Shown piece by piece: positions 11,861 to 60,230 of a DNA stretch of 64,000 nt; within the stretch, counting starts at the first letter, position 1; every line of letters begins with the position of its first letter. The translations under genes were made by a program, and so were the position numbers. Origin of the DNA: Candidatus Rokuibacteriota bacterium. GTDB taxonomy: Bacteria; Methylomirabilota; Methylomirabilia; Rokubacteriales; CSP1-6. The stretch spans positions 1 to 64,000 of the forward strand of contig QHRU01000059.1 in the NCBI GenBank assembly GCA_003220225.1. Direction: 5' to 3'. The notes under the pieces were generated by a model. That model had not been told where the DNA came from. It saw nothing but the letters and a program-made list of their open reading frames with translations, and ran no database searches.

Positions 11861-12823
11861 ATGAAGGCCTACTTCCTCACCCCCGGTCCCGGCGGGACCG
11901 GGGTCGAGCTTCGCGAGACCGCCACGCCCGAGCCCAAGCCCGGCGAGCTTCTCGTGCGGGTCCGGGCCACGTCGTTGAACCGCGGCGAGCTGCTGGGCGG
12001 CAAGCCCGGCGCGCCGGCCAGAGCCGGTGGCGGCGAATGCGCGGGGGACGTGGTCAAGCTCGGCGACGGCGTCACCGCCGTGTCGACGGGCGACCGTGTG
12101 ATGGGACGCTGCGCTGGCGGCTTCGCCGAGTACGCGCTGATGGACGCGCGCGAGGCGATGCGGGTGCCCGGCCCGCTCGCGTGGGAAGAGGCGGCGGCCA
12201 CGCCGCTGGTCTTCGTCGTCGTCTACGACATGCTGGTTGCCCAGGGCCAGCTCGCGGCCGGGCAGTGGCTGCTCGTGACGGGCGTGTCGTCGGGGGTCGG
12301 CGTCGCCGCCCTGCAGACCGGCAAGGTGCTGGGCGCGCGGGTCATCGGCACCTCCGGCTCTGCCGACAAGCTCGCCCGGCTGGAGAAGCTCGGCCTCGAC
12401 GTCGGCATCCGCACGCGGGCCGCGGATTTCCACGACGCCGTGCTGAAGGCCACCGACGGCAAGGGCGTGAGCCTCGTGGTCAACAACGTCGGCGGCTCCG
12501 TCTTCGCCGAGTGCATCAAGAGCCTGGCCTTCGAGGGGCGGCTGGCGACGGTGGGACACATGGATCGCGTGCTGAGCGCCCCTCTGGATCTCGAAGCCCT
12601 GCACAGCAAGCGCCTCACGGTCTTCGGCGTGAGCAACCGGCTCCGCACGGCAGCGCAGCGCGCGGCGACGGTGCGCGGCTTCGTCAAGGACGTCCTGCCT
12701 TACTTCGAGGACGGTCGGCTGCGGCCGCTGGTCGACAGGATCTTCGGCTTCGACGACCTGCCGTCGGCCATCAAGTTCATGGAGTCCGACGCTCAGGTCG
12801 GCAAGATCGTGGTGCGTTTGTAG
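11861..12823 (+). CDS. Zinc-binding-dehydrogenase-superfamily oxidoreductase (quinone oxidoreductase-like)
   Basis: A 320-residue medium-chain dehydrogenase/reductase. The N-terminal GroES-like domain has no obvious catalytic zinc Cys/His set, as in zeta-crystallin/quinone oxidoreductases. The Rossmann domain carries VTGVSSGVGVAALQTGKVLGARVIGT near residues 143-168. It probably reduces quinones or enones with NADPH. ATG 11861 follows GGGAGGATCGAGT. The last nine codons and stop lie inside a 65-base unit that is repeated 105 bases downstream (see the repeat at 12796-12965). Its end overlaps the convergent Mug reading frame by 31 bases. Confidence 0.92.
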   Translation: MKAYFLTPGPGGTGVELRETATPEPKPGELLVRVRATSLNRGELLGGKPGAPARAGGGECAGDVVKLGDGVTAVSTGDRVMGRCAGGFAEYALMDAREAMRVPGPLAWEEAAATPLVFVVVYDMLVAQGQLAAGQWLLVTGVSSGVGVAALQTGKVLGARVIGTSGSADKLARLEKLGLDVGIRTRAADFHDAVLKATDGKGVSLVVNNVGGSVFAECIKSLAFEGRLATVGHMDRVLSAPLDLEALHSKRLTVFGVSNRLRTAAQRAATVRGFVKDVLPYFEDGRLRPLVDRIFGFDDLPSAIKFMESDAQVGKIVVRL

Positions 12824-13467
12824 AGGAGCGGCCCGGCATTGCCGGGCTGCGACGAACGTTGGGGGGTGTGGGGGGCCATGTCGGGGCCCCCCACGCGGTC
12901 GGTCGGCAAGATCGTGGTGCGTTTGTAGAGGAGCGGCCCGGCTTTGCCGGGCTGCGACGAACGTTCCGTCCATCGCCTGAGGCGTCGGTACCACACGAGC
13001 TTGTCCCCGAAGCCCGGATAGGCGGCGTTGCGGCCGCTGGGGTTGGGCACCACGAAGACGGTGGCACCGCCGATGCGCTCTGGCTTGCGCCCCGGCCCGG
13101 CGCTCGCGGACGGACCGAAGAACTGTCGGTACGCCGTGCTCCCGACAAACGCCACCACGGCCGGCTCGATGCCCGCGATCGTGCGGGCCAGCCGTTTGCG
13201 ACCGCGCGCATAGTCGGCCGCCGTCAGCTCGGAGGCCTCGCGCGTCGCGCGCTCCGCGATGTTGGTCAGCGCGAGCCCGAACTCCGGAAGGCGAACGTCG
13301 TCCGCAAACGTCAGCGGCTCGGACACGAAGCCCGCGGCGTGGAGCAGGCGATAGAAGGGATTACCGGGCCCCGCGAAGTGATGACCGACACGGGCCGACG
13401 TCAGGCTCGGGTTGATGCCGACGAAGAGGATGCGCGGCTTCGGGCACAGGCGCGCCGGCAAGCGCAC
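12793..13467 (-). CDS. mug: Mismatch-specific uracil/thymine-DNA glycosylase (Mug family)
   Basis: A 224-residue family-2 uracil-DNA glycosylase. Motif 1 is LFVGINPSLTSARVGHHFAG near residues 14-33 and motif 2 is VPNPSGRNAAYPG near 139-151. It removes U or T opposite G (and ethenocytosine) in base-excision repair. GTG 13467 begins one base after the stop of the upstream gene. Family members are usually about 165-180 residues. Here residues after about 170 are translated from the antisense of the 12796-12965 repeat, giving two copies of a 21-residue stretch starting RSSQPG. The functional protein probably ends near residue 170, and the extension is a by-product of the repeat. Confidence 0.88.
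   Translation of the reverse strand: MRLPARLCPKPRILFVGINPSLTSARVGHHFAGPGNPFYRLLHAAGFVSEPLTFADDVRLPEFGLALTNIAERATREASELTAADYARGRKRLARTIAGIEPAVVAFVGSTAYRQFFGPSASAGPGRKPERIGGATVFVVPNPSGRNAAYPGFGDKLVWYRRLRRWTERSSQPGKAGPLLYKRTTILPTDRVGGPDMAPHTPQRSSQPGNAGPLLYKRTTILPT
12796..12965. repeat. Tandem 65-bp repeat: gene 3' tail plus hairpin of family A element
   Basis: 12796-12860 and 12901-12965 are identical except for one base. Each unit holds the last nine codons and TAG of the gene at 11861, then a 7-bp GCCCGGC/GCCGGGC hairpin and a shared CGACGAACGTT. Between the copies lies the second family-A hairpin, GGGGGGCC-N7-GGCCCCCC. The first hairpin probably also ends transcription. The duplicated gene tail shows that the unit was copied after the element was already in place. 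Confidence 0.9.
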
Positions 13468-15002: not shown

Positions 15003-15042
15003 CTCTGCCTCCTCACGCCAAACACATCACCTCGGCCCCCTT

Positions 15043-15113
15043 AGAGGAGCGGGCCGGCTTGGCCGGGCCGCTCCGAAGGCCCGGGGGGAGTGGGGGCCAT
15101 TTCGGGGCCCCCA
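15043..15113. repeat. Family A double-hairpin intergenic element
   Basis: It begins TAGAGGAGCGGG and contains a 13-bp stem with one mismatch (GGAGCGGGCCGGC / GGCCGGGCCGCTCC), then a G-run and GGGGGCC-N7-GGCCCCC. It lies between the stop of the gene at 15117 and the start of the CMD gene at 15002, where it could end or attenuate transcription. Confidence 0.8.
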
Positions 15114-15116
15114 CGT

Positions 15117-21304: not shown

Positions 21305-21313
21305 TTTAAGTCA

Positions 21314-21503
21314 GAGGGGCCGAGACGGCCCCTCCGACACCTCCCACGGCCTTGGCGCCGGCAAAGCCGGCGCTCGAACCCGCATTCGACCGTTAGCGCT
21401 TGGGCTTGGCGCCGAGACGGCCCCGCCGACACCTCCCCACGGCCTTGGCGCCGGTGGAGCCGGCGCTCGATCCGGCATACGATCGTTAGCGCTTGGGCTT
21501 GGC
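21314..21503. repeat. Tandem family B hairpin repeat including gene 3' tail
   Basis: Units 21319-21410 and 21411-21503 are direct, adjacent copies of about 92 bases with a handful of mismatches. The first opens with GAGGGGCC-gagac-GGCCCCTC (21314-21334). Each has GCGCCGGC-N3-GCCGGCGC and ends in TTAGCGCTTGGGCTTGGC. That is the reverse complement of the last codons and stop of the binding-protein gene at 21486. So the gene tail was copied together with the hairpins. The hairpins probably act as terminators or attenuators between binding protein and permeases. Confidence 0.9.
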
Positions 21504-23012
21504 GTCGAAGAGCCAGAGCCACTCGTCGCCGCGGGCGGCGTACTCGACGCGCTTGGAGATCGCCAGCGTGTCGTACTGCGTGAACAGGTAGATCGCCGGC
21601 GCCTCCTCGCGGATCAGCTTCTGGATCTGCGAGTACGTCCGCTTGCGGGCCGCCTGGTTCAGCGTCGAGCGGCCCTCGTCGATCAGCTTGTCCAGCCCCT
21701 CGACCCGCGTGTAGTGCTTGCCGATCCAGCCGCCCGGCTCCGTGTGGAAGAGCGGGTGGAGCACGGCGTCGGCGTCGAAGACCGAGTAGTTGCCCCACGA
21801 GCCGTAGGCGCCGTTGGTGGCCTTGCCCTCGGCCTGCAGAAACTTGTTCCACGCCGGGCCCGGGTCCCACATCCGCGCGTTCGTGCGGATGCCGACCTCG
21901 GTCAGCATCTGGGTGAGCGCCTCGAAGACCGGCCGGAACTCGACGAACGCGCTGTGCAGCGTGATGTCGACGCCGCTGGGATAACCGGCCTGGGCCAGCA
22001 GCTCTTTGGCCTTCTTGGGATCGAACGGGAACGGCTGGACCTCCGGATCGTGGCCAAAGGCCGGCGGCTGCACGACGGTGGCCACCTGTCTGCCGAGCCC
22101 GCCCATCAGCCTCTGGATGATGGCCTGCTTGTCGATCGCGAGGTTCGCGGCCTGCCGCACGAGCTTCTTGTCGAACGGCGCCGACCGCATGTCGAGCTCG
22201 ACGTAGTGCACGCGGAGAATGGGCGCGGACGACACGTACGTCTGCGCGTGCGCCTTGAGCTCGGGCGCGATGTCGGCCGACACGTTGCGGATCAAATCCA
22301 CCCCGCCCGTCTTGATCTCGGCGATCTGGGTGGCCACCTCCGGGATGGCGCGGATGACGAGGTGCTTGAACGCGGGCTTGCCGCGCCAGTGGCCGTCGAA
22401 GGCCTCCAGGCGGATGTACTGGTCGCGCTTCCACTCGACGAACTTCCACGGCCCCGTCCCGACGGCGGCCGTGGTGCCGAACGCGTCGTCGCCGACCTTC
22501 TCGAGGTGCTTCTTGGGGACGATGGGAAAGAAGACCAGCCGCTCGAGCAGGAGCGGGAACGGCTTGTCGGTGACGAGGTGAATCGTGTCGGCGTCGACGA
22601 TGCGGACGTCCTTGATGGCGCGGACGTTGCCGTACTGGGGCGACTTCTTCTTCTCCTTGCCGGGCTCGGTCACCCGCTCGATCGAGAACTTCACGTCCTC
22701 GGCGGTCAGCGTGTCGCCGTTGTGGAACTTCACGCCCTTGCGGAGCTTGAACTCCCAGGTCGTGTCGTTGAGCGCCTTCCACGAGGTCGCCAGCGACGGC
22801 TCGTACTCCAGCCTGGCGTTCTTGTGCAGCAGCGAGTCGAACATGTTGATGTTGACCAGGATGCCGACCCGCTCGAAGTGCATGTGGGGATCGAGGGTCG
22901 GCGCGTGGGAGATCAAGGCGACGGTCAGCGTGTCCTTGGGCTGGGCGTCGGCGCCCGGCGCGAGCGCGAGCAACAGGGCGAGGGCGAGCAGCGGCAGCGA
23001 CCAGTGCCTCAT
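21486..23012 (-). CDS. ABC transporter family-5 substrate-binding protein
   Basis: A 508-residue periplasmic binding protein. The signal peptide is MRHWSLPLLALALLLALAPGADAQ (cleavage after ADA). TLTVALISHAPTLDPHMHFE, the WEFKLRKGVKFHNGDTLTAEDVKFSIER signature (about 80-108), LRVHYVELDMRSAPFDKKLVRQAANLAID and KAKELLAQAGYPSGVD are all typical. It captures peptides or other small organics for the permeases at 20387 and 19487. ATG 23012 has an AAGGAGG site and overlaps the stop of a small upstream frame (ATGA). Confidence 0.93.
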   Translation of the reverse strand: MRHWSLPLLALALLLALAPGADAQPKDTLTVALISHAPTLDPHMHFERVGILVNINMFDSLLHKNARLEYEPSLATSWKALNDTTWEFKLRKGVKFHNGDTLTAEDVKFSIERVTEPGKEKKKSPQYGNVRAIKDVRIVDADTIHLVTDKPFPLLLERLVFFPIVPKKHLEKVGDDAFGTTAAVGTGPWKFVEWKRDQYIRLEAFDGHWRGKPAFKHLVIRAIPEVATQIAEIKTGGVDLIRNVSADIAPELKAHAQTYVSSAPILRVHYVELDMRSAPFDKKLVRQAANLAIDKQAIIQRLMGGLGRQVATVVQPPAFGHDPEVQPFPFDPKKAKELLAQAGYPSGVDITLHSAFVEFRPVFEALTQMLTEVGIRTNARMWDPGPAWNKFLQAEGKATNGAYGSWGNYSVFDADAVLHPLFHTEPGGWIGKHYTRVEGLDKLIDEGRSTLNQAARKRTYSQIQKLIREEAPAIYLFTQYDTLAISKRVEYAARGDEWLWLFDAKPKR

Positions 23013-23212
23013 GAAGTGCCTCCTTGCGTGACGCGGAAGGCAGGATATATCACGGCCTCGTCGCCTGCGAGCCACTCCTTCTGCGGCTTGTCGTGCAGGA
23101 CGAACTTCGTCCCGTCCTTCGCGGGATCGGTGTTGGGCGCCTCGGGGGTGGCGAACGAGATCCCGCCGGCCACGAGCGAGCGCAGCGAAGCGCAGCGCGC
23201 GCACTCGGCCAC
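23009..23212 (-). CDS. Small hypothetical protein (67 aa) with CxxC, coupled to the binding-protein gene
   Basis: GTG 23212 opens a 67-residue frame beginning MAECARCASLRSLVAGGISF and ending FRVTQGGTS. Almost every codon ends in G or C until the last few, which is strong coding bias. The stop overlaps the binding-protein ATG as ATGA. No family is recognised, and no signal peptide or membrane segment is seen. It has one CxxC pair near the start. It could be a real small coupled gene, or the end of a decayed longer gene; its 5' side abuts the divergent antitoxin promoter. Confidence 0.5.
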   Translation of the reverse strand: MAECARCASLRSLVAGGISFATPEAPNTDPAKDGTKFVLHDKPQKEWLAGDEAVIYPAFRVTQGGTS

Positions 23213-25875: not shown

Positions 25876-26015
25876 AGCCTGGCGGAATATCGAGGGGTGC
25901 CACGGCTTCGCCGGGGCGCCCCGAGCGTGTGGGGCTGGGGGATAGAGGAGCGCCCGGGTTCATCCCGGGCGCTCCGAACGTTTGGGGGGTTTGGGGGGCC
26001 ATATCGGGGCCCCCC
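25876..26015. repeat. Two family A hairpin elements in tandem
   Basis: 25876-25942 has GAGCCTG, TATCGAGGGGTGCC and a compound hairpin closed by GGGGYGCC/GGCGCCCC. 25943-26015 has a perfect 12-bp stem (GGAGCGCCCGGG, loop TTCAT, 25947-25975) and then GGGGGGCC-N7-GGCCCCCC (25993-26015). The region lies between the convergent ends of the nitroreductase and MFS genes, where two-way termination is expected. Confidence 0.88.
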
Positions 26016-26021
26016 ATCTTC

Positions 26022-49170: not shown

Positions 49171-49202
49171 GATCGTCGTCCTCCCTCGCGGGGCCGCCCG
49201 TA

Positions 49203-49279
49203 GCATCGAGGGGCGCCACGGCTTCGCCGGGGCGCCCCGAGCGTTGGGGGGTTTGGGGGGCCATTTCGGGGCCCCCCAT
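49203..49279. repeat. Family A double-hairpin intergenic element
   Basis: The first hairpin is GGGGCGCC (49210-49217) with GGCGCCCC (49231-49238) around an inner CGGC-TTC-GCCG. GAGCGTT and G-runs follow, then GGGGGGCC (49255-49262) pairs with GGCCCCCC (49270-49277). It touches the stop codon of the gene at 49279 and sits before the start of the binding-protein gene at 49170. A terminator or read-through control is likely. Confidence 0.88.
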
Positions 49280-54260: not shown

Positions 54261-54291
54261 GCCGGCTCAGCGCGCGGAAGGCTTGAGGGAA

Positions 54292-54370
54292 GTCGGAGGG
54301 GGCGTCTCACAGGCGCGCCTCCGGCGCGACGGCCCCCTCCGATGCCTCCCCCTGGACTGGATGGCGCCGG
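54292..54370. repeat. Family B hairpin element (terminator-like)
   Basis: An 11-bp perfect stem, TCGGAGGGGGC with GCCCCCTCCGA (54293-54342), encloses an inner GC-rich stem (GCGCGCC...GGCGCG). GATGCCTCCCCC follows, and a shortened GGCGCCGGCG. It lies between the convergent pirin and dehydrogenase genes, suited to end both transcripts. Confidence 0.8.
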
Positions 54371-54390
54371 CGATCCTCGGCGCGGCGCGG

Positions 54391-58897: not shown

Positions 58898-58898
58898 C

Positions 58899-58976
58899 TT
58901 CGGAGGGGGCCTCGACGGCCCCCTCCGATGCCTCCCCCCAGAACTCGATTGCGCCGGCAAAGCCGGCGCTCGAACC
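58899..58976 (+). terminator. Family B double hairpin acting as terminator of the ThDP enzyme gene
   Basis: CGGAGGGGGCC (58901-58911) pairs with GGCCCCCTCCG over a 5-base loop, an 11-bp perfect stem beginning 3 bases after TGA 58897. A second perfect hairpin, GCGCCGGC-AAA-GCCGGCGC (58951-58969), follows. The same two hairpins occur at 21314-21503, and the first type at 54292. Confidence 0.82.
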
Positions 58977-60140: not shown

Positions 60141-60230
60141 GAGCCTGTTGGAGTATCGAAGGGTGCCACGGCTCCGCCGGGGCACCCCGAGCGTGGGGGG
60201 GTATGGGGGGCCATTTCGGGGCCCCCCATT
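60141..60230. repeat. Family A double-hairpin intergenic element
   Basis: GAGCCTG, TATCGAAGGGTGCC and a compound stem closed by GGGTGCC/GGCACCC are followed by GAGCG, a long G-run and GGGGGGCC-N7-GGCCCCCC (ends 60229). It starts directly at the TAG of the oxidoreductase gene. The GAGCCTG left extension is shared with 25876. Confidence 0.85.

Follow-up and report, generated by a model that had tools for sequence, protein, structure and literature searches.

Copies of upstream flanking DNA at the 3′ ends of two-hairpin repeats in Rokubacteria, including a duplicated gene tail

Introduction

The way in which small palindromic repeats that have no transposase spread through bacterial genomes is poorly understood. 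The MIRUs of Mycobacterium tuberculosis are small repeats that lie at overlapping stop/start codons in operons, form tandem arrays and have a short target duplication. Integrative elements that restore the 3′ end of a gene carry integrase genes and use a fixed attachment site. REP, BIME and REPIN sequences are short, high-copy, intergenic palindromes with imperfect stems and compensatory changes; they are non-autonomous, are associated with TnpA-REP (RAYT) transposases and occur singly, as pairs and in clusters. CGTC-tagged palindromes are dispersed palindromic repeats reported without a dedicated transposase (PMC3733652), and the STAR elements of staphylococci, in the available part of their description, combine a 14-bp GC-rich motif with 40–44 bp spacers in intergenic arrays (PMC3532100).

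Here we analyse the repeats of a window (the whole stretch of DNA under study, 64,000 nucleotides) and of the MAG to which it belongs (G000, 6.03 Mb). The MAG is from the Rokubacteria, uncultured bacteria of soil and groundwater. Its two-hairpin elements share the REP, BIME and REPIN traits listed above, but they have no GTAG tag or RAYT, are built as a fixed pair of hairpins (hpA and hpB) in the same orientation, carry copies of flanking DNA at their 3′ end and also occur in divergent regions. MIRUs resemble them as small repeats that enter operons at overlapping stop/start codons and form tandem arrays, but differ in sequence and in their short target duplication, whereas the Rokubacteria elements copy 16–120 bp. 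As with integrative elements, a gene end can flank the insert on either side while the gene itself remains intact, but the present elements are non-coding and ~76 bp long, with a flank that differs from element to element. With CGTC-tagged palindromes they have in common that they are palindromic, dispersed and without a recognised transposase of their own (PMC3733652). The likeness to STAR, as far as the available part of that description goes, lies in GC-rich intergenic arrays with variable copy number and locus-specific spacers, whereas STAR has no two-hairpin unit (PMC3532100). Literature searches on Rokubacteria repeats and on long target duplications in bacteria turned up no description of such elements, and we class them as non-autonomous palindromic interspersed repeats, possibly with a new way of moving.

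Results

Two families of two-hairpin elements

The genome contains two families, fam1 and f2, both with the plan TCGAGG-hpA-G-run-hpB. In fam1, hpA, G-run and hpB together span ~75 bp (consensus GATCGAGG), and f2, of ~76 bp, runs from TTCGAGCGCCGGC to CTCCGA (consensus TTCGAGCG). Compensatory changes in the hpA stem affect 5 pairs and 2 pairs in the two families. At up to 3 mismatches the hpB core is matched 252 times in G000, compared with none for a reversed-pattern control, and 139 element blocks were counted in the 2.05 of 6.03 Mb (about one third) that was read in stretches. Matches to the hpB pattern lie nearly all in Rokubacteria: fam1 is nearly confined to one family of the phylum, at 0 to >400 copies per genome, and f2 is present in other families of the order too. 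Arrays of hpA, of hpB or of hpA-hpB occur with many different periods. A fam1 variant with a third hairpin (GGCCGGGGGAGTCCGAGGGGGGCGTAGCCCCCTTCGCTTGAAGA) between hpA and hpB is found at C1:23675, C28:28967, C33:3193 and other places.

Several described classes do not accommodate these elements. GTAG is absent from the 5′ foot of both family consensus sequences, and the GTAG within TTTGTAG at 12820–12823 is a chance overlap with a stop codon. A search for RAYT (Y1 transposase, PF01797) returned nothing in G000, where positive controls were detected, and one partial match in 12 element-rich genomes. A REP/RAYT origin is therefore rejected. Neither an unpaired CGTC tag nor a CCA-like tail is present in the consensus sequences or alignments of either family, so the elements do not belong to the CGTC-tagged REPs. 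MITEs of DDE insertion sequences are discarded because the flank copies are variable and 16–120 bp long, not a short fixed target duplication; the element ends, TCGAG and CCCCCC/CCGA, are not inverted repeats of each other. Intrinsic terminators are ruled out by the absence of a T-run after hpB and by the 20 of 105 placed fam1 blocks that lie in divergent intergenic regions (23% for background gaps), and a described RNA family by the absence of any Rfam match within the window. As to retrotransposition, three reverse-transcriptase-like genes are encoded in G000 and nothing ties them to the elements.

The duplicated gene tail of the window

The locus at the end of the dehydrogenase gene (Table 1) reads tail, hpA, hpB, ACGCGGTC, tail, hpA and then the convergent glycosylase ORF. 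As the sequence-only reading had proposed, it holds two near-identical 65-bp units with a start-to-start distance of 105 bp: 12796–12860 and 12901–12965 agree at 64 of 65 positions, the sole mismatch being an A/T difference in the hairpin loop. That reading gave each unit nine codons and a stop; the count is eight codons, TAG and one base of a ninth. The 40-bp gap between the units is made up of hpB, the stronger hairpin of the two, and ACGCGGTC.

Table 1. Positions of genes, gene tails and repeat elements in the window
Feature	Position	Strand	Evidence or remark
Zinc-type alcohol dehydrogenase/quinone reductase-like gene, tail duplicated	11861–12823	+	PF00107 3e-22, PF08240 7e-12
Uracil-DNA-glycosylase-superfamily ORF, convergent	12793–13467	-	PF03167 over aa 7–153
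Gene tail copy 1, in use	12796–12823	+	eight codons + TAG
fam1 hpA copy 1, stem 12828–12850	12820–12865	+	overlaps stop codon; hairpin scan, profile match
G-run and fam1 hpB	12866–12892	+	GGGGGGCCATGTCGGGGCCCCCC at 12870–12892
8-nt junction ACGCGGTC, hpB 3′ end to duplicated flank	12893–12900	+	other elements follow this rule
Gene tail copy 2, after stop, non-coding in this frame	12901–12928	+	28/28 identical to copy 1
fam1 hpA copy 2, stem 12933–12955	12929–12965	+	no hpB behind
fam1 hpA-hpB element	15038–15115	+	
Complete f2 element (hpA-hpB)	21308–21378	-	E 2e-9
Copy of 23-bp tail of solute-binding protein gene	21393–21415	-	
Degenerate f2 element between the two tails	21416–21475	-	hpB cut short at junction
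Solute-binding protein family 5 gene	21486–23204	-	PF00496 6e-83; tail 21486–21508
fam1 hpA-hpA-hpB block	25888–26018	+	
fam1 hpA-hpB element	49202–49279	+	
f2 element, hpA truncated on 5′ side	54290–54373	-	E 4.8e-9
f2 element	58898–58974	-	E 2.5e-18
fam1 hpA-hpB element	60152–60229	+	

It is extremely improbable that this repeat is an assembly artefact or a coincidence. The source is a short-read MAG, which is where such an error could arise, but chance would produce a 65-bp repeat in the window ~5e-26 times, the two copies differ and other arrays are more diverged. Furthermore, the same architecture recurs in many separately assembled MAGs from several studies, and ordinary reads should be able to span a 105-bp unit.

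No element follows the stop codon in four orthologues of the dehydrogenase (82–87% amino acid identity). Their neighbour genes differ, however, so that the window locus has no true empty site for comparison. On the opposite strand the glycosylase ORF runs in frame across both 105-bp units, such that its last ~57 residues are element-encoded. All three reverse frames are open in the array, which makes this read-through weak evidence of use, and we do not argue for the extension as functional.

A second locus lies at the end of a minus-strand solute-binding protein gene, where 21343–21415 and 21436–21508 (73 bp) are 89% identical with a period of 93. The proposal that the same event had taken place there (at 21314–21503) was right as to a second tail duplication; the plan is the same, with hairpins of the f2 family.

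Short duplications gather at the elements

Among the non-coding tandem repeats found in 1.26 Mb, 17 of 28 overlap a fam1 element, compared with 1.8 expected and a maximum of 7 in 500 placements. The elements are thus the main sites of non-coding duplication here, in line with the earlier suggestion that the hairpin region promotes short tandem duplication. We also sought the last 60 bp of each of 1,520 genes, called by a simple script, within 350 bp downstream. At a score of at least 20, copies number 6 beside elements (an element within 250 bp; 0.04 expected) and none elsewhere (0.47 expected; Fisher p 2e-5). Two of the 6 (C1 27778 and C1 59124) proved to be false ORFs within elements and were removed; the remaining true tail duplications are those at C18:30062, at C65:20109 and at the two window loci. 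A further one of ~120 bp (C108:106793) was overlooked by the gene caller and recovered by the flank test. Gene-tail duplications, whose absence from the rest of the genome would have spoken against the sequence-only reading, thus recur in this genome and its relatives, only beside elements.

Two further tandem duplications were noted. Approximately five tandem copies of a 136-bp non-coding unit at G000:C96:96932–97584 are without these hairpins, and a perfect 145-bp tandem duplication that starts from a gene's stop codon (G000:C98:33054–33344) has no recognised element.

The flank copy abuts the 3′ end of hpB

The position of the copies relative to the element is fixed on one side. Among 108 f2 elements from several genomes, in locus sets picked by similarity search and not at random, 12 have a copy of their upstream flank within 8 nt after the hpB 3′ end (0.11 expected), and none of the 108 has one further away. 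The 12 correspond to ~10 independent loci, as one case (L301:235) is a match within the element itself and two others belong to a single locus. The minimal case, at L301, is a 49-bp repeat that stands flush on both sides of f2. In fam1, the general flank test with blocks as units gave one case (C96:99357); the signal becomes visible only on setting the array spacer against the upstream flank. In 24 of 39 arrays, against 0.8 expected, the spacer that separates hpB from the following hpA repeats the flank upstream of the first hpA (at least 70% identity, 13–44 bp). The window locus follows this spacer rule with 76% over 33 bp, its copied flank being the gene tail. The rule also supplies a STAR-like feature, since fam1 spacers are copies of the flank that lies upstream at the same locus; this is a working likeness with no sequence relation claimed, and the available part of the STAR description contains no statement that spacers copy the upstream flank (PMC3532100).

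Between the first flank copy and hpA lie anything from 0 to 76 bp, a spread for which our explanation below does not account. The copied flank is often plain intergenic DNA. The fixed boundary is therefore the element's own 3′ end, the end of hpB, and the copied part is whatever stands upstream of hpA. A gene tail is copied because it happens to form the flank and not on account of its being the end of a gene, and the suggestion that a mobile element takes gene ends as its boundary is ruled out by the hpB-end boundary together with the copied intergenic flanks. Most elements, ~89% of f2 and nearly all single fam1 copies, have no flank copy, which weighs against our explanation; such copies may be erased quickly, or may not form every time.

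The fam1 arrays are plain (flank–element)n series without a trailing flank. This form would also result from local replication slippage alone, in which polymerase stalling at hpA/hpB lets the nascent strand pair again 60–170 bp upstream. The window locus would then reflect a tandem duplication of tail, hpA and hpB followed by loss of the second hpB, with element movement a separate matter. The many periods of the hpA, hpB and hpA-hpB arrays agree with slippage, as does a backward jump at L332, where a further partial duplication ends within the hpA 5′ arm. The 12 of 108 f2 elements with a trailing flank have no second element, however, and the junctions described below have acquired an element that an element-free template could not supply. 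Overall, we regard slippage on its own as unlikely.

Occupied and empty sites in relatives

Comparison with relatives reveals junctions with and without an element. At the thiolase–3HCDH junction, three genomes of one genus have f2 and two tails, the second of which has decayed in G036, and at least six other genera have the same gene order with one tail and no element. The sucC–sucD junction contains f2 and two tails in G010 and G031 (in G031 the tails are identical through the stop codon) and is element-free in G051, of the same genus, and in G003, G004, G006, G001 and G002. Between RNase J and ftsK, the element, in the same two-tail arrangement, is present in G010 only and absent from nine other genomes; both tail ends in G010 differ from the relatives' consensus. 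These three operon junctions are insertions that duplicated 34–65 bp of the target. In the first two, the element entered the coding tail; the upstream copy completes the first gene and the downstream tail still overlaps the following gene as in the ancestor, which indicates a target-duplicating insertion and not a tandem duplication after an intergenic insertion. This preserved overlap beside a new element is also what slippage fails to explain.

Elements have hit the sucC–sucD junction repeatedly (G010/G031, G007 and G094; loci L398–L400 and L409): one genus has f2 accompanied by tail copies, another a long f2 variant that contains an additional hairpin, and a third an inverted f2-like hairpin. 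The junction of the fumarase alpha and beta genes (G000:C65:20109–20400) contains two f2 elements and two alpha tails, and the apparent N terminus of the beta subunit includes the second f2 in frame. At the same fumarase gene of a second genome (L314), f2 is accompanied by a tail copy. L332 (G013:C29) has three gene tails parted by two f2 elements, and tails 1 and 2 differ by synonymous changes only.

Differences between tail copies are mostly synonymous, in 26 versus 11 codons at C18, L324, L332, L314 and L385 (26/37 differing codons; with a half-constrained expectation of 0.4, p 2e-4). Since the second tail should be free of coding constraint, such a bias is unexpected and counts against duplication. 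It would follow if imported DNA, a donor gene tail with its element ending at hpB, had been joined to an element-free resident allele, so that one tail came from the donor and the other from the resident; both copies indeed have a plausible native C terminus at L314, L332 and G010 sucC. Import is nevertheless very unlikely, because intergenic flanks obey the same rule and because identical or near-identical pairs exist (G031 sucC; L317, 38/38; L303, 34/34; C108, ~117/120), as expected of duplication at birth. If the tails are duplicates, subsequent recombination between alleles or gene conversion of tail 1 could be the source of the synonymous bias.

Discussion

When an element arrives or multiplies, 13–120 bp upstream of hpA are copied and joined 0–8 nt from the 3′ end of hpB. 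Our favoured explanation, which we consider probable, is that these are a RAYT-less, REP-like family of mobile hairpins whose insertion and local amplification duplicate 13–120 bp of upstream flank, with the window locus as a gene-tail case. A copied intergenic flank gives an array with a locus-specific spacer, whereas a copied gene end gives the tail twice. Mechanistically, the new strand may be joined to an upstream point after breakage or strand exchange at the end of hpB, by staggered opening of the target and insertion or by a template switch. The process would be anchored at the 3′ end and independent of a RAYT transposase. Candidate agents are a SbcCD-like hairpin cleavage activity or a nicking enzyme. 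An insertion that lands in overlapping genes and copies the tail leaves both of them intact, and this would account for the persistence of such cases. In the window, the copied flank would have comprised the gene tail and hpA, hence a second hpA without hpB. As this locus has neither a second hpB nor an empty site with the same neighbours, tandem duplication with loss of hpB is equally possible there.

A more specific version, which we put forward tentatively as a possibility, is RAYT-less transposition with the hpB 3′ end as its anchor, in which target duplications are long (16–120 bp) and of variable length and coding tails stay whole. If true, such movement would be a way of moving not described before for a bacterial non-coding element, closer to target-primed or break-templated insertion than to any known insertion sequence or REP. 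Retrotransposition is retained only as part of this version.

The flank copy flush with the hpB end is a readable scar and, together with element-free relatives, makes models of insertion and amplification testable on sequence. The scar shows how an element can enter an operon with overlapping genes, as in sucCD, fumarase and thiolase, and leave both genes unbroken, and it suggests that the locus-specific spacers of other arrays, such as those of STAR, may be copied flanks.
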